Source of the DNA: Arthrobacter gandavensis
GTDB lineage: Bacteria; Actinomycetota; Actinomycetes; Actinomycetales; Micrococcaceae
Length of the DNA stretch: 64,000 bases
Direction: 5' to 3'
Assembly: GCF_015355785.1 (NCBI RefSeq)
Contig: NZ_JADKYW010000005.1
Location: 1,057,394 to 1,121,393 of the forward strand
Shown here: positions 3,081 to 13,630 of the stretch, piece after piece
How the letters are laid out: each line of letters begins with the position of its first letter
Position numbering within the stretch: position 1 is the first letter of the stretch
Program-made: the position numbers and the translations under genes
The notes under the pieces: generated by a model
Databases searched by the model: none
What the model was told of the DNA's origin: nothing
What the model saw: only the letters and a program-made list of their open reading frames with translations

Positions 3081-4412
3081 CTAGTGCGAAACCGGAACCT
3101 TAGCGGCAGCGCCCCGGAGCACCGGCGCGCCAAGCATCGAAATGACGACGGCGCCGAGTGCCATGGGAATAACGAACAGTAAGTACAGATCCCCCGGGGT
3201 CCAGCCGCCGTCGATGAGGCCACCGGCCAGGATGGGGGAAACGATCGCTCCGACCCGGCCCATGCCGATCACCAGTCCCAGGGCGGTGCCGCGGACCTCG
3301 GAATCGTAATAGGTGGGGCTGATGGCCAGCATGCCGGCGATCGGTGCGTTGGAGCCGAAGCCCACCAGGGCGGCGGCGAACAGCGCCAGCGGCAGCGAAC
3401 CTTCGGTGGAGTTGGCGAACACCACAAAGGTCGCTGCGCCGATCACGAAGAACACCGCCAGGACCCGGCGCATGTCATAGCGGGAGCCGAAGACACCCAG
3501 CACCACCGCGCCGGTGATCGCGCCGACGCTGAAGAGCACGCCGGCGTTGATGCCGTCCTGCGCACTGAAACCGCTCGCGGTGATCAGCTTGGGGGTCCAG
3601 GAGTTCGCGAAGTAAAAGCTGGCCATGAGGATGAAGTACGCCAGGGAGAGCAGGATGGTGCGCCGGGCGTTGGCTCCGGTGAGGACGTCCGCGAAGCGGG
3701 ACTTCTTCTCTCCGCGCGGTGCCGGTTCGGGCAGCTCCGCCACTGGCTCCTGGCCAATGGCGCGCAGGGTCTTGTTGATCCGTTCGAGCGCGCCGGCCGG
3801 GCGTCGCACCGAGAGGTAGTCAATGGACTCGGGCAGCACCTTCAGTACCAGCGGGATCATGATCAGGGTGGCAATGCTGCCGAAGAGGAAGGCTGATCGC
3901 CAGCCGAAGGAGGCGATCAGCACGCCTGTCACCAGCCCGCCCAGCACGCCGCCCACGGGCTGGCCGATGCTGACGATTGCCAGGGCGGTGGAGCGCCGCT
4001 TGGCGTTGGAGAACTCCGAGGCGAAGACGTTGATGGTCGCCTGCAGCGTTCCAATGGCAACGCCGGTGATCAGGCGCAGGACCAGCAGCACTTCGTAGGA
4101 CGGAGCGAAGACGGAGGCAAACATGCCTGCCGCGACGACGCAGACACCGATCAGCAGGGTCTTCTGGCGGCCGATGATGTCCGCGATGGTCGAGACGAAA
4201 ATGGAGCCAACAGCCATGCCGACCAGCGCTGCGCTGAGCAGGAAGCCGAGCTGGGCGCCGTTGAGGTCCCACTCCGCTGAGACCGCGGAGGCGCTGAAGG
4301 CCATGACCAGGACGTCGAAACCGTCGATCATGTAGAGAGCTGTACAAATTGCAATGATTCCGACTTGCCGCCGGCTCAGGGTGGAATCTTCGATCCGGTC
4401 TTTGAGGTGCAT
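3081..4412 (-). CDS. MFS transporter, aromatic acid:H+ symporter (AAHS) type
   Basis: This 443-aa, about 12-helix membrane protein likely imports a small carboxylate with protons. Helix 1 carries MIDGFDVLVMAF, the DGxD motif of aromatic acid:H+ symporters (PcaK/BenK relatives). The loop 2-3 motif is ADIIGRQK, and a hydrophilic central loop lies near residues 200-235. Substrate cannot be assigned, because no aromatic degradation gene is nearby. It is transcribed toward ald. Confidence 0.85.
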   Translation of the reverse strand: MHLKDRIEDSTLSRRQVGIIAICTALYMIDGFDVLVMAFSASAVSAEWDLNGAQLGFLLSAALVGMAVGSIFVSTIADIIGRQKTLLIGVCVVAAGMFASVFAPSYEVLLVLRLITGVAIGTLQATINVFASEFSNAKRRSTALAIVSIGQPVGGVLGGLVTGVLIASFGWRSAFLFGSIATLIMIPLVLKVLPESIDYLSVRRPAGALERINKTLRAIGQEPVAELPEPAPRGEKKSRFADVLTGANARRTILLSLAYFILMASFYFANSWTPKLITASGFSAQDGINAGVLFSVGAITGAVVLGVFGSRYDMRRVLAVFFVIGAATFVVFANSTEGSLPLALFAAALVGFGSNAPIAGMLAISPTYYDSEVRGTALGLVIGMGRVGAIVSPILAGGLIDGGWTPGDLYLLFVIPMALGAVVISMLGAPVLRGAAAKVPVSH

Positions 4413-9334: not shown

Positions 9335-9604
9335 GTGGCCTCCATCTAGTGGAACTGATCGCCGCGCCTGGAGCGCGGCTCCGGAATCAGCCTATCGAAA
9401 AATAGTAAGGATGCTTAACAAGCGGGTGGGTTGGGCCGGTACACACGAAGAAACGGATCCGCCAGTAGGGGGATACAGGCAGATCCGTCTCCGTGGGGAT
9501 GCATCCCCTACCGCTCCGGCAGCAGACCCGCAGTGGGCCGGCGAACTGGAGCGGACTTCAATGGGCCCGGCAGGCGGCGCGGGCGTCGGTATGCTGCGGT
9601 TGCG
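9335..9604. other. Non-coding stretch with an imperfect hairpin
   Basis: No gene seen in 270 bp. GAAACGGATCCGCC (9450-9463) pairs with GGCAGATCCGTCTC (9478-9491) apart from one mismatch and one wobble, and a short perfect palindrome GGGGATGCATCCCC follows. Either could terminate the minus-strand operon ending at 9605. The catalase promoter should lie near 9340-9420. Confidence 0.4.
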
Positions 9605-9796
9605 CTACTCCCAGAGACAGTCTGCCCAGGCGGCGTCCCGCAGGTAATCCCGTGCCGGCCCCACGTTGAAAAGTTCACCCCGGGACTCGACGTATCCCAT
9701 GCCGCGCATATCAGCGACTGTCTCTTCGTTGCAGCCCAAGACCGTTCCCAGGTCTTTGTCGTCAGCAGCCAGAACTACCTCATTCCGTTGCGACAT
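9605..9796 (-). CDS. Small acidic protein, unknown function
   Basis: A 63-aa ORF starting MSQRNEVVLAADDKDLG and ending WADCLWE, with an excellent AGGAGG about 9 nt before the ATG at 9796. That spacing favours this start over the in-frame one at 9829. It lies 50 bp downstream of the broken LanB-like gene on the same strand and is probably in the same transcript. Two cysteines, many acidic residues, no recognised domain. A precursor peptide or an accessory protein of the neighbouring enzyme is possible but unproven. Confidence 0.6.
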   Translation of the reverse strand: MSQRNEVVLAADDKDLGTVLGCNEETVADMRGMGYVESRGELFNVGPARDYLRDAAWADCLWE

Positions 9797-9846
9797 AGTG
9801 ACCGCCTCCTTCTCCTCGGCGCCCTCCACCGGTCCATCCGGGGAAA

Positions 9847-10805
9847 CTAGTGCTTGTCCAGGAGCATGGCTTCGCGCTCTGTGCTCCAGGTCCGGGCATA
9901 CAGTCCCATGGCGGCTTCCTCCCGCAGGGACAGTCCCAGGCGGTTGAGGAGCATGTGGGCTTGGTAAACCGTAAGATGCTGTGCGCTTCGGCTGACGCGC
10001 GCCTTGTCCGCCCGGTAAAGGTAGGTGTCCATGGTCCGGAACCAGCGGCGCCGCCAGTTTTCGACGGCGGATTCGGCAGCCGTGGCGGCCATCAGCCGGT
10101 GGGTCGGCATGACTTTCGCCCCGACCTGCACCGTCATGGCCTGCCGCACGCTTGCCGCCCGCGGACCAAAGCCGGCAGTGCAGCTGCGCAGGTGGCTGTC
10201 CCAGTAATAGTCCCAGGAAAGCCTGCGGCGGTCCGGCCAGCTGGACGCCCGGGGCCCTTCATCATGCTGCGTGCCGAATCGAAGAGCAGCAGCGAACCGA
10301 GCGCCCATCTGTTCTGGACCTTCGGGAAGCGGGCCGTTGCCCACGTGCCGAGGTCCGAGGACAGCTCAAAGACTTCCTCAGCAAGCGCCAGCCCTTCCAC
10401 GCCGCCGTACTTCGCAAGATCGGCTTCGATGCGCGGATCCTGAGGGTCTGAGCCACCGGGACTCAGCCGGTCGCAGGCCGGATCTCCGAAGGCGTGCGTC
10501 ACGGTCAGATGGCCTATGACACCGCTTGCCTGCTCCTGGAGTGCTCCCAGGAGGGACTTCAGCCGGTCCAGGGTTTCCTGGGGCGCCAGGACCTTCATGC
10601 GTACATGGGCGTTCGCAGGCTCAGAACAGCGGGTGTAGAACCACCGCTGCGCCCCCCATAGCTGGGCCTGCGCCGCCAGCGGGGTAACCAGTTCTCCAAT
10701 GATGCCGTCCGCTACATCGAAGCCGCCGGTATAGATGGATAGTGTCCACCAGTGAGTGCTTGCATTAGTTCGCGAGGCGTTTCGAACTGCTGTTAGCTGG
10801 CTCAT
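9847..10805 (-). pseudogene. Stand-alone lantibiotic-dehydratase C-terminal (SpaB_C/thiopeptide-type) protein, frameshifted
   Basis: Two overlapping frames form one 319-aa protein. The first (10805 to about 10257) contains WWTLSIYTGG, RWFYTRCSEPANAHVRMKV and DLAKYGGVEGLALAEEVFELSS. The second (about 10256 to 9847) continues with WPDRRRLSWDYYWDSH and ends TWSTEREAMLLDKH. These are landmarks of the LanB elimination domain, also found in thiopeptide pyridine synthases. The frames meet at GGGCCCC (10251-10257). One missing base, or a -1 slip there, joins them exactly. ATG at 10805 follows GGAGGAAG. No glutamylation-domain partner is present in the window. Unless frameshifted, only a 223-aa truncated product is made. 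Confidence 0.75.
10251..10257 (-). other. Frameshift point, GGGCCCC heptamer
   Basis: On the minus strand the codons read aaG-GGC-CCC, the X_XXY_YYZ slippery pattern. A -1 slip leads straight into the conserved second frame (...KGP-RASSW...). A lost base in this homopolymer-rich spot, or a sequencing error, explains it equally well. Confidence 0.6.
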
Positions 10806-10899
10806 GGGGTTCTTCCTCCGGGTCCTAGTCTGGTTACCGCCGCTGGGGCGGGTCTAGAGGTGTTGCTGGATGGTTCATCCCCCAACTGAGGGGCTTAGA

Positions 10900-10950
10900 T
10901 TAGAACCATTCCCAGCTTTTGATGGAAACCGGTGCAGTTGCCTTCTTCAT
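10900..10950 (-). CDS. 16-codon ORF, candidate scaffold/precursor peptide
   Basis: It encodes MKKATAPVSIKSWEWF and stops at TAA. AAGGGG lies about 8 nt before the ATG. It is the first ORF upstream of the LanB-like gene on the same strand (94 bp before its ATG). The peptide has a basic N-terminus, one Thr, two Ser and an aromatic WEWF end, but no Cys. Size and position suit a leader peptide or a minimal RiPP precursor, yet a chance ORF this short is common, so confidence is low. Confidence 0.35.
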   Translation of the reverse strand: MKKATAPVSIKSWEWF

Positions 10951-11254
10951 GGTCGTATCCCCTTTTTTAGTTCGGCTGGTTGCACAGCCGGTCCTGTTTG
11001 ACTCCGAAAGCTTCCCCCGGGCCGGAAGGGTGTGTCCACCGTTACCAATTTCAGCTTCCTGTCATGTCCGGTTGGTGCCCCGAGGGCCGTTTACGGGTTC
11101 CGGGCAGCCCCGTCGAAAGCCCGCAGACATGCGGAAATCGGCGCTTTGGGTACCGAACTACCGGGCTAGAGTGGACAATGGCATTAAGCTGTCATGTCAC
11201 TCTCTCCGGGTTCCAATTTTCGGGCGCAGCGCTTTATCCGGAGGCCGGCAGTTC
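10951..11254. other. Intergenic control region between divergent operons
   Basis: 304 bp without a supported gene, between the 16-codon ORF (-) and the regulator (+). An open frame runs through it from 10919 on the plus strand, but it lacks a good start signal and family similarity. A short inverted repeat CGGCTG/CAGCCG lies near 10973-10990. Both promoters are expected here; none could be assigned confidently. Confidence 0.4.
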
Positions 11255-12289
11255 ATGGGGCATCAGGTGCACGCCGGACCCGTTCCGGCTGCCCCCAGCA
11301 CCGCGGTTGTAGGAGGAGATTTGCTGGATCAGGTATCGGTTGAGGTCTACCGCTACGCGGTCTCCCATCCGGGGTGGACCCCTGGAGAAGCGTCGGATGC
11401 ACTGGGCTACACAACGCGTGCCATCGACCGGGCAGTGGATGAACTGCGGTCCCGCTGCCTGCTCTTCTCCGAGAGCCCGGACAGCACTGTTTACACCGCG
11501 GTGTCCCCCGATGTGGCACTGGCCGAGCTGGTGGATCCGGATGAACGCGAGATGCTGGAACTGAGGGCCCGCATTGGAGCCAAGCGGCGCGAGCTGGCAG
11601 CCCTGGTGCCAACCTTCGCCGAAGCGCGCAGGCAGGTTGCCGCAGATGCCTCGGTCGAAGTGCTTGAGGACCCCGAGCAGGTCCAGCGGGTGCTCATTGA
11701 GTACGGACGCTCCGCCTCGGAAAGCGTGCTGATCGCCCGGCCCGGCCATGGTTCCAACGCCGACTTCCAGGAAGAGAGCGTGCAGAAGGACCTGGACCTG
11801 CTCCGGGCAGGGGTGAAGCGGCAGACCCTCTACCACTCGAGCACCCGGGACCACGTACCAACCTGCAAGGCGGTCGAGCGGATCAGCGAGGCCGGCGGAG
11901 AATTCCGCACATTGCCTTACGTGCCCATGCGCACCCTTATCTTCGATGACAAGGTGGCCGTGGTGGCACGCCAGCTGCACACCTATGACAGGGCGGGCCT
12001 GGTGATCCGGGATGCAAACCTCATTGGCCTCTTCAGCAAACTCTTCGAGTTCGCCTGGAGCCTGGCCGAGCCCTTTCTCGCGGATGAACCCGGCAAGGCG
12101 GGGCTGACCAGCACCCAGCGGTCCGTGCTGGCCGGACTGGCTGCGGGGCACTCGGATGAGGTTATCGCCCGCCGTGTGGGCATCAGCGTGCGGACGTGCA
12201 GGCGGCACATCGCCTGGATGCTGGAAGAACTCAAGGCAGAGAGCCGTTTCCAGGCGGGAATCAAGGCGCACAAGGCGGGGTGGATTTAG
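11255..12289 (+). CDS. TrmB-like/LuxR-type transcriptional regulator
   Basis: 344 aa from the ATG at 11255, with GGAGG 10 nt upstream; the frame is open further upstream without a better start. Residues about 25-75 form a TrmB-like winged helix (SVEVYRYAVSHPGWTPGEASDALGYTTRAIDRAVDEL). A coiled segment and a central phospholipase-D-like sensor region follow (about 120-260). The C-terminus holds a LuxR helix-turn-helix (LTSTQRSVLAGLAAGHSDEVIARRVGISVRTCRRHIAWML, about 285-335). Regulators of this build are often found beside RiPP clusters in actinobacteria. Divergent orientation suggests it controls the LanB-like operon; that is inference. Confidence 0.85.
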   Translation: MGHQVHAGPVPAAPSTAVVGGDLLDQVSVEVYRYAVSHPGWTPGEASDALGYTTRAIDRAVDELRSRCLLFSESPDSTVYTAVSPDVALAELVDPDEREMLELRARIGAKRRELAALVPTFAEARRQVAADASVEVLEDPEQVQRVLIEYGRSASESVLIARPGHGSNADFQEESVQKDLDLLRAGVKRQTLYHSSTRDHVPTCKAVERISEAGGEFRTLPYVPMRTLIFDDKVAVVARQLHTYDRAGLVIRDANLIGLFSKLFEFAWSLAEPFLADEPGKAGLTSTQRSVLAGLAAGHSDEVIARRVGISVRTCRRHIAWMLEELKAESRFQAGIKAHKAGWI

Positions 12290-12334: not shown

Positions 12335-13630
12335 ATGACGTTTGAGGAAACCACGGGGTCGGTGCTGACCCCGGAAGCACAGGTGGCCCTGGACCGGGCG
12401 ACGGGCTCGGCGCACCGCCACCACGATCTCCTGTCCCACCGCGCCTTCCACATCAAGCAGTCCGCTGTCCGGGATGTCTTCGATATCTCGATCCAGCCCG
12501 GCCTGATCTCGCTCGCCGGAGGCAGTCCGTACCTCCAGGAGCTGCCGCTGGATGAGCTGGCCGACGCCACGGCATCGATCATCCGCAGCCAGGGCCTGGC
12601 TGCCCTGCAGTACGGTCCCGGGCAGGGAATCGCCGAACTCCGCGAACTGGCCTGCGAGGTGATGGCCGCCGAGGGCATCCTGGATGCTGACCCCGCCGAC
12701 GTCGTCATCACCACGGGTTCACAGTCAGGTCAGGACGTTGCCGCCAAGGTCTTCTGCAACCCCGGTGACGTGGTGCTGTGCGAAGACCCCACCTATGTGG
12801 GCGCGCTGAATACCTTCGAGTCATACGAGGTGGACATCCAGCCGGTCACCATGGACTCGGAAGGACTGATTCCCGAGGCCCTTCGGGAGCGGATTGCCTC
12901 ACTGCGCGCCGCGGGCAAGACCATCAAGATGCTCTACACGATTCCCAGCTTCAACAATCCCAGCGGCATCACGCTCTCCGCCGCCCGCCGGGACGAAATA
13001 GTGCAGATCTGCCGCGAGAACAACATCCTGGTGCTCGAGGACAACCCCTACGGTCTCCTCCGGTTCGACGGCGAGCCGCTGGCACCGCTGCGGGCATCGC
13101 ATCCGGAGGACGTGCTCTATCTGGGATCCTTCTCCAAAATCTTCGCTCCCGGCATGCGCCTGGGCTGGGCGCTGGTTCCGCGGCACCTGTTCCGCCGCTT
13201 CTACCTGGCCTGCGAATCCGTGGTGCTCTGCCCGTCGCCCCTGACCCAGATGATCACCGCGGCGTACCTCCGGGACTTCGACTGGATGAGCCGCATCAGC
13301 GGTTCGCGCCGGCTGTACGCCGGCCGCTGTGCCGCCATGCTGGCGGCACTGGCGGAGGAAATGCCCGACGGCGTGAGCTGGACGGTGCCGGACGGCGGGT
13401 TCTTCGTCTGGGTGACGCTGCCTGAAGGAATCGACACCTATCCACTGCTGGCAGAGGCCATCGACGCAGGAACCGTGTTCATTCCGGGTACGGCCTTTAC
13501 CCCCGGCGACGAGCCCAGCTCCAAGCTGCGGCTTGCGTTCAGCGCCGTTTCCGAGGAGGACATCGCAGAAGGCGTGCGGCGCCTGGCTCCGGTCATTCGG
13601 CGGGCCCTGGCCCCAGCCGGAGCGTCCTAG
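12335..13630 (+). CDS. PLP-dependent class I/II aminotransferase (2-aminoadipate/MocR-like fold)
   Basis: 431 aa; transfers amino groups between an amino acid and a 2-oxo acid. The PLP-binding lysine is in YLGSFSKIFAPGMRLGW (about residue 270). Also visible are TTGSQSGQD near 128 (phosphate-binding loop) and EDNPYGLLRF near 230 (aspartate contacting the PLP ring). The short N-terminal segment has no MocR-type GntR DNA-binding domain, so it is an enzyme rather than a regulator. Substrate not deducible; LysN/aromatic aminotransferase relatives are closest. Confidence 0.9.
   Translation: MTFEETTGSVLTPEAQVALDRATGSAHRHHDLLSHRAFHIKQSAVRDVFDISIQPGLISLAGGSPYLQELPLDELADATASIIRSQGLAALQYGPGQGIAELRELACEVMAAEGILDADPADVVITTGSQSGQDVAAKVFCNPGDVVLCEDPTYVGALNTFESYEVDIQPVTMDSEGLIPEALRERIASLRAAGKTIKMLYTIPSFNNPSGITLSAARRDEIVQICRENNILVLEDNPYGLLRFDGEPLAPLRASHPEDVLYLGSFSKIFAPGMRLGWALVPRHLFRRFYLACESVVLCPSPLTQMITAAYLRDFDWMSRISGSRRLYAGRCAAMLAALAEEMPDGVSWTVPDGGFFVWVTLPEGIDTYPLLAEAIDAGTVFIPGTAFTPGDEPSSKLRLAFSAVSEEDIAEGVRRLAPVIRRALAPAGAS

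Follow-up and report, generated by a model that had tools for sequence, protein, structure and literature searches.

A conserved W-x-W micropeptide gene beside a solitary LanB C-terminal-fold enzyme in Arthrobacter: a candidate leaderless RiPP-like module

A LanB C-terminal domain is usually taken to be either the latter half of a dehydratase or a thiopeptide cyclase. What, then, might such a domain do when it stands by itself behind an open reading frame (ORF) of 16 codons? This question is raised by a locus of Arthrobacter gandavensis at positions 9605–12289 of the window (i.e., the whole stretch of 64,000 nucleotides that was analysed, from contig NZ_JADKYW010000005.1), in which a 16-codon micro-ORF (MKKATAPVSIKSWEWF, 10950–10900), a LanB C-terminal-like gene (LanB-C, 10805–9847) and an ORF of 63 amino acids (aa; 9796–9605) follow each other on the minus strand, and a gene for a LuxR-type regulator (11255–12289) lies divergently on the plus strand. 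A first-pass annotation had proposed either a minimal pathway for a ribosomally synthesized and post-translationally modified peptide (RiPP), acting on a very short Ser/Thr-containing aromatic peptide or on the 63-aa protein, or the decaying remnant of a RiPP cluster. On balance, we lean towards a vertically inherited RiPP-like module in which the solitary LanB-C-fold enzyme would modify the aromatic-x-Trp core of a tiny peptide, with no need for a leader or a glutamyl-tRNA partner.

As first noted, the micro-ORF has a ribosome site of its own (the purine-rich AAGGGGA), and its 16-aa sequence matches the own genome once, at the locus itself. When 29 genomes of the genus (the own one included, and with Arthrobacter citreus, koreensis, gandavensis and luteolus among the named relatives) were searched with the first frame of the LanB-C gene, every genome yielded matches (two to eight each, some being second pieces of one gene). 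A micro-ORF was present upstream of the LanB-C gene in 29/29 genomes versus 23 of 2900 shuffled upstream regions, so its conservation is above chance. These micro-ORFs span 7–17 codons, i.e., 16–17 in nine loci, 8–9 in eight (MTKVWDWI, MTSKVWDWL and similar) and 7 in twelve (MKSWDWF, the shortest), with a C-terminal K-[S/V]-W-[D/E]-W-[F/I/L] core (KSWEWF in the window) in which Ser (21) or Val (8) is followed by Trp (29), Asp (20) or Glu (9), Trp (29), and Phe (21), Ile (6) or Leu (2). The changes across the genus are synonymous and conservative: the core Lys codon is AAG in 25 cases and AAA in four, Asp and Glu each use both of their codons (GAC/GAT and GAA/GAG), and three kinds of stop codon occur (18, 7 and 4 times). 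Synonymous core codon changes together with varying stop codons form the pattern of an evolving translated peptide. In four genomes of the 7-aa group, a longer ORF concealing the micro-ORF could be rejected, as the frame stays open for just 24 nt ahead of the core and its sole ATG, GTG or TTG is the proposed ATG; the open frame reaches further in the other genomes. The first-pass annotation had suggested looking for the small ORFs beside intact homologues, and the 63-aa ORF, like the micro-ORF, is indeed found in 29/29 genus genomes, in one copy per genome and after LanB-C.

Beyond the genus, the genus profile matched in 87 of 395 genomes of the family (i.e., in all 29 of the genus and in 58 beyond it), and one locus was read from each of 40 of these 58 genomes, the remaining 18 lying outside this sample. 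Three of the 40 loci (L178–L180) are split LanB systems, and the other 37 are solitary. At the position of the micro-ORF, 37/37 solitary loci encode a peptide with a [W/Y]-[DEGA]-W core (that of L175 being identical to the peptide of L111, from Arthrobacter hankyongi), and a gene-encoded peptide is thereby co-conserved with the modifying-enzyme family in 66/66 solitary main loci read (29 in the genus, 37 elsewhere). The controls with shuffled upstream regions amounted to 23/2900, 52/3700, 53/4500 and 3/300, i.e., 0.8–1.4%. Outside the genus, 34 of the 37 peptides carry a signal-like, strongly hydrophobic N-terminus (judged by a 15-residue hydropathy maximum of 1.66 or more; the exceptions are L143, L177 and L181), which suggests export in the sister genera, probably through Sec. 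Their cores are repeated one to six times, with six GVWDWPQQ units in L144, and the series runs from 93 aa, in a precursor with six cores and a signal-like leader, down to the 7-aa gene.

Ser/Thr-free cores are common (KVWDWI, NWEWPK, AWDW and VWDWPQQ), no core contains Cys, and aromatic-x-Trp is the conserved part. The proposed pathway on a very short aromatic peptide is thus borne out by co-conservation in the genus and by the W-x-W precursors of sister genera, whereas the importance that it attached to Ser/Thr is not. Since Ser/Thr lie outside the conserved core, dehydration is unlikely, and the conserved aromatic pair suggests a reaction or binding between the two aromatics.

In a tree of 52 enzyme rows, the main enzymes of the genus form one group (support 93/92), and L143 is nested, with starred support, among the signal-bearing rows. 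Long branches lead to L177 and L181, the latter standing oddly among the paralogues; the paralogues in this tree come from genus genomes only, and its root is not fixed by the data. Loss of the leader is supported as a derived state in L143, and is likely but not proven to be derived in Arthrobacter.

The very short ORF, with its two Trp codons ~95 nt before the LanB-C gene, might also be a regulatory leader peptide for that gene (acting through Trp attenuation or ribosome stalling), the peptide itself being functionless. Peptides as short as this one can serve as stalling leaders, and in the genus a small GC-rich stem (CCCC..GGGG, 10893–10879 on the minus strand), the form of which is kept, directly follows the micro-ORF stop codon. 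However, this stem has merely 3–4 pairs, with both-side changes at one pair, and a known RNA element was rejected on the ground that no Rfam match was found in 9500–11400. Moreover, the position between the Trp codons is limited to D/E and the last residue to F/I/L in the genus, and most peptides elsewhere have the signal-like leader, some with up to six tandem cores. The kept D/E and the short stem do not resemble a Trp attenuator, and we consider a mere leader peptide quite improbable.

The LanB-C gene had been taken for one frame of 319 aa. In the window it is split into a 223-aa frame (10805–10134) and a 165-aa frame (10344–9847) by one base missing from a GC-rich run near 10250–10257. The 319-aa protein is intact in relatives, and one relative, 98% identical over residues 1–186, has an intact open frame of 325. 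When compared with the closest relative (G010), the 180 codons before the break hold ~36.5 synonymous and 3.5 non-synonymous changes, and the 132 codons after it hold 34 and 0, respectively. This purely synonymous change past the break implies either that selection acted on the protein until a very short time ago or that the break is an assembly error. The ratio of non-synonymous to synonymous substitution rates (dN/dS) is ~0.01–0.03 for LanB-C (six pairs) and ~0.01 to 0.13 for the 63-aa ORF (fifteen pairs). Given these low ratios, the synonymous codons past the break and the presence of the locus in 29/29 genus genomes, the notion of a decaying RiPP remnant was rejected. A programmed frameshift as a general feature was rejected as well, 27/29 genus genomes having one open frame and the gene of G022 being broken elsewhere. 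In G022 (C1:357558–358513), the break lies at a different place from that in the window despite strong purifying selection on the gene.

Regarding its family, the first window frame matches PF14028 (Lant_dehydr_C; 5.8e-13, 50 bits with a cut-off of 24.4), and the second frame (10344–9847) has no Pfam match by itself. By the same cut-off, a paralogue in the own genome scores 63.2 bits and intact homologues of other genera score 62.3 and 85.5 bits. The scores for TIGR03891 (thiopep_ocin) are 30.4 (broken half), 39.7, 36.3 and 48.6 bits, one of the four exceeding 48.45. The structure model of an orthologue (predicted local distance difference test, pLDDT, of 81.5) matches MibB, MadB, TbtD, PbtD and TsrL (Foldseek E of 1e-6 to 2e-4; for TbtD, PbtD and TsrL, E of 8e-6 to 2e-4 with template modelling (TM) scores of about 0.4–0.5 and a root-mean-square deviation (rmsd) of about 9–12 Å), and the enzyme is accordingly modelled with the elimination-domain / [4+2] cyclase fold. 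A sequence search of the PDB with a narrow profile gave no match, and a broad profile retrieved MibB (E of 0.0011) and two weaker matches; a comparison of the enzyme with the PADLOC defence families gave nothing convincing.

In MibB, the residue that aligns with H284 of the enzyme is the His of HMTCNRL, the aligned segment having a negative score. In alignment A2, position 284 is His in 18/20 W-x-W-associated rows and in 3/3 split-LanB rows, versus 1/6 paralogue rows. Going by the shared motif, this His would correspond to H961 of NisB. The H961A mutation abolishes dehydration by NisB (PMC4341554). Position 71, in the segment aligned with HLRVR of MibB, is K, R, H, S or N in W-x-W rows and R in 3/3 split-LanB rows.

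The fold shared with MibB, TbtD and PbtD would be compatible with a more conventional role, in which the enzyme dehydrates or cyclises Ser/Thr together with an unlinked glutamylation enzyme, like the split class I LanB or thiopeptide systems. Split LanB systems do occur in the same family (L178–L180), where the preceding ORF resembles the end of a LanB N-terminal protein, and split LanB are also the closest relatives outside the family among the loci read. Nevertheless, the partner glutamylation domain (PF04738) was found in 0/37 genomes with a W-x-W locus, a search in which distant N-domains could be missed by the profile, versus 3/3 genomes with a split LanB locus within the family (in one case below the cut-off). 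As for its sensitivity, this search gave matches in 3/5 likely positives (two over the cut-off) and in 0/14 standard controls, and it missed two more distant genomes with split-looking loci. Dehydration is disfavoured by the lack of a PF04738 match in combination with cores devoid of Ser/Thr and Cys, and Ser/Thr chemistry with a remote partner therefore seems very unlikely.

At the level of the order, 19/396 genomes matched, with E no better than 9.5e-20 outside the family, and several of the weak matches adjoin N-domain-like ORFs. At the level of the class, 37/394 genomes gave a match. Five of these, from outside the family, reached about 300 bits, and the further relatives outside it were weak or multi-domain; three of the five strong relatives were tested, and in 3/3 a PF04738 protein over the cut-off directly precedes the enzyme. 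Outside the family, the loci read showed no recognisable small W-x-W precursor. The N-domain-like ORF of one such locus (L189) holds WQW in its sequence. Split LanB pairs (an N-terminal followed by a C-terminal protein) were seen in L178–L180 within the family and in L220, L222 and L224 of another, large-genome family of the class. As far as sampled, the combination of a solitary enzyme with a W-x-W peptide thus appears confined to the family, with split LanB as its nearest outside relatives.

With no partner enzyme found by the PF04738 search or among the ten neighbouring proteins of the window, LanB-C might instead bind the W-x-W peptide and leave it unmodified, i.e., serve an unmodified signal as receptor, chaperone or immunity protein, with the regulator sensing the complex. 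The variable position 71 of the W-x-W rows (Arg in the three split-LanB rows), the usual adjacency of the regulator and the single strongly conserved upstream element at the operon all fit such a role. In contrast, the aligned active-site His is kept in 18/20 W-x-W rows of A2 and in 1/6 paralogue rows, and a dN/dS near 0.01–0.03 suits an enzyme, though not enzymes alone. A purely binding function is therefore unlikely in our judgement, while deserving to be kept in mind.

Arthrobacter genomes also hold extra solitary LanB-C paralogues without a W-x-W peptide (L048–L087, and G000:C5:220898–221836 in the own genome), and five of the six paralogue rows in A2 lack His at position 284. A W-x-W peptide upstream of the paralogues was rejected, none being found at the 45 copies fetched from genus genomes, and none was found at the three split-LanB loci either. 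The upstream regions of paralogue classes B and C have no 5-residue peptide common to nearly all, and those of class A have no shared 5-residue peptide that is W-x-W-like. The class A upstream regions share GTGGACAC and a GGGAAAGACTTCC-like sequence, resembling the main promoter.

The third gene of the operon, the 63-aa ORF, starts behind AAGGAGG, which confirms the AGGAGG initially reported, and homologues were found in 34/37 solitary loci outside the genus, some consisting of the C-terminal part alone. Its predicted fold is β-α-α-β-β-α (pLDDT of 79.5), with CRP-type winged helices as the best Foldseek matches (E of 0.12 or worse). A comparison with RiPP recognition elements (i.e., the PqqD-like winged helix) gave this β-α-α-β-β-α order, weak Foldseek matches and no convincing Pfam family, and a search for phage or defence families with this ORF and with the regulator gave nothing convincing. 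The 63-aa protein may act in DNA binding, in peptide binding or as a substrate. Its near-invariant C-terminus (RDAAWADxxW) is the most invariant part of the protein, even where the remainder is degenerate, and it likewise ends in spaced tryptophans, which would suit the protein as the main substrate in place of the micro-ORF product. However, its compact predicted fold is unlike most precursors, the tandem cores sit in the other peptide, and outside the genus the homologue was found in 34 of the 37 loci but not in the other three. We therefore hold it to be extremely unlikely that the 63-aa protein is the main substrate.

The divergent regulator had been described as TrmB-LuxR. Its divergent orientation and its LuxR (GerE) helix-turn-helix (Pfam GerE, 1.8e-8) were confirmed, whereas the TrmB likeness proved weak: the window protein has no Pfam TrmB match, and one orthologue has a match below the cut-off (4e-4). 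All 37 solitary loci outside the genus have a regulator homologue on the opposite strand, and 24/29 genus loci have one there within ~1.5 kb. A 20-nt element (GGGGAAGCTTTCGGAGTCAA, 10998–11017 on the minus strand) lies 5′ of the micro-ORF in 29/29 genus genomes; 28 copies are identical, and the remaining one differs at a single position. Five further matches, all at three mismatches, occur across the 29 genomes, as against four for the reversed control pattern. As a putative operator or promoter element, it may be where the regulator binds.

A GC-rich element (CGCCCCAGCGGSGGTAACCA or a near variant, 10852–10831 on the minus strand) just before the LanB-C start was seen in several genera (loci L144–L147 and L150). 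In a comparison of the gene content of fifteen stretches of 15–22 kb by means of a crude ORF caller, the regulator was found in 14/15 and an aminotransferase adjoining it (12335–13630 in the window) in 13/15 stretches, among the matches listed. The window has 2-oxoacid dehydrogenase genes, and so do nine of the other stretches compared, again among the matches listed. The locus has the appearance of core genome passed on vertically rather than of a mobile cluster. A major facilitator superfamily protein (3081–4412) is the sole transporter among the ten neighbouring window proteins.

From the above, we infer the following for modification, partner role, export, regulation and any use as a signal. 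The small ORF would encode a peptide with aromatic-x-Trp as its functional core (W-[D/E]-W, in many cases with P-K/Q or F/I/L after it), and the solitary LanB C-terminal-fold protein would bind this core and modify it without a glutamyl-tRNA partner. The 63-aa protein would serve as a partner, or possibly as a second substrate, and the LuxR-type regulator, usually divergent and adjacent, would control the operon. In sister genera the signal-like leader would take the peptide, with its 1–6 cores, out of the cell, probably via Sec; in Arthrobacter sensu stricto the leader would be gone, leaving a 7–17-aa peptide that is little more than the core. Because seven residues suffice in one clade, the enzyme would recognise the aromatic-x-Trp core itself, and direct recognition followed by tRNA-free modification is the most likely course. 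That the peptide is used as a signal is a guess, prompted by its universal and regulator-linked setting.

Several observations weigh against this RiPP-like module. The enzyme frame is broken in this strain and in one other genus genome (G022), the superpositions of the enzyme model are loose (TM of 0.34–0.51, rmsd of 7–12 Å), and position 284 is Gln in two W-x-W rows of A2 (L159 and L163). The residue between the aromatics varies (D, E, G or A); it is usually acidic, but being G in L163 and A in L181, it indicates that chemistry at the acid is not general. A leaderless precursor is unusual among RiPPs, the 63-aa homologue was not found in 3/37 loci outside the genus, and none of the ten neighbouring window proteins belongs to a protease, peptide-export or known RiPP-enzyme family. 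Finally, the regulator is not adjacent in 5/29 genus loci (L026, L027, L028, L030 and L106), so that tight linkage is usual but not required; it lies ~9 kb off in longer loci of two species (L099 1–990 and L101 300–1292), and no regulator homologue was found within 10 kb in L106.

With less than even confidence, we tentatively go one step further and propose a new class of ribosomal peptides, probably signals, in which solitary LanB-elimination-fold enzymes would carry out a new reaction on aromatic-x-Trp with neither aminoacyl-tRNA nor leader, and in which the precursor would have shrunk to MKSWDWF, among the smallest enzyme-linked genes known. The open-access literature yielded no description of a system of solitary LanB-C and W-x-W peptide among the matches listed, which for the W-x-W motif concern venom or antimicrobial peptides. 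If true, the LanB-C fold would have a third, tRNA-free use in this conserved solitary branch, which comes with a W-x-W peptide of its own, and the module could prove categorically new. The series from a 93-aa six-core precursor to 7 aa asks how an enzyme recognises its substrate after loss of the leader, and since W-x-W peptides are easily synthesised, the reaction is directly testable. Genes as short as the micro-ORF are easily missed by routine annotation.

When set beside known systems, the enzyme shares the fold, the sequence family and an HMxxNRL-like motif with its His with the elimination domain of class I lanthipeptide enzymes (NisB, MibB and MadB; PF14028), but it is solitary, its glutamylation domain was not found in the W-x-W genomes searched, and its position 71 is variable; unlike class I lanthipeptides, its cores have no Cys and no conserved Ser/Thr. 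The split LanB pairs (L178–L180; L220, L222 and L224), the closest relatives read outside the W-x-W group, likewise have a separate C-terminal protein, but in these a LanB N-terminal protein precedes it, and L178–L180 lack an upstream W-[DEGA]-W peptide. Thiopeptide [4+2] cyclases (TbtD, PbtD and TsrL) are stand-alone proteins of about 300–350 aa with the same fold as the locus enzyme. The substrates of thiopeptide pyridine synthases contain dehydroalanines, whereas the cores of the present family cannot supply two dehydratable residues.

The W-x-W-x-K spacing of the locus-family core SWDWPK is present in the darobactin core as well, and likens the family to darobactin/streptide-type peptides; the aromatic core of darobactin is cross-linked by radical S-adenosylmethionine (SAM) enzymes. 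A SPASM match was not found in 28/37 W-x-W genomes, including all eight tested outside the genus, and nine genus genomes, among them the own one, contain a single match each, on other contigs or far from the locus. A radical SAM enzyme in trans was accordingly rejected as a general requirement, though not in this strain. The SPASM match of the own genome (L267, at G000:C6:569861–570049) is unlinked to the locus, and the ten window neighbours include no radical SAM enzyme.

In bufferins, a Sec-type signal peptide replaces the classical leader, and multinuclear non-haem iron-dependent oxidative (MNIO) enzymes act on Cys motifs (PMC12452194). The sister-genus precursors resemble these and other Sec-signal RiPPs in their Sec-type signal likeness, but the locus cores have no Cys and the ten window neighbours include no MNIO. 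The biarylitides have a pentapeptide precursor encoded by an 18-bp gene, overlooked by annotation, that yields an aromatic cross-linked tripeptide, the cross-link being made by a cytochrome P450 (PMC13417212). While no cytochrome P450 was found among the ten window neighbours here, the biarylitide precursors are, like the peptides of Arthrobacter, near-leaderless, genome-encoded micropeptides.

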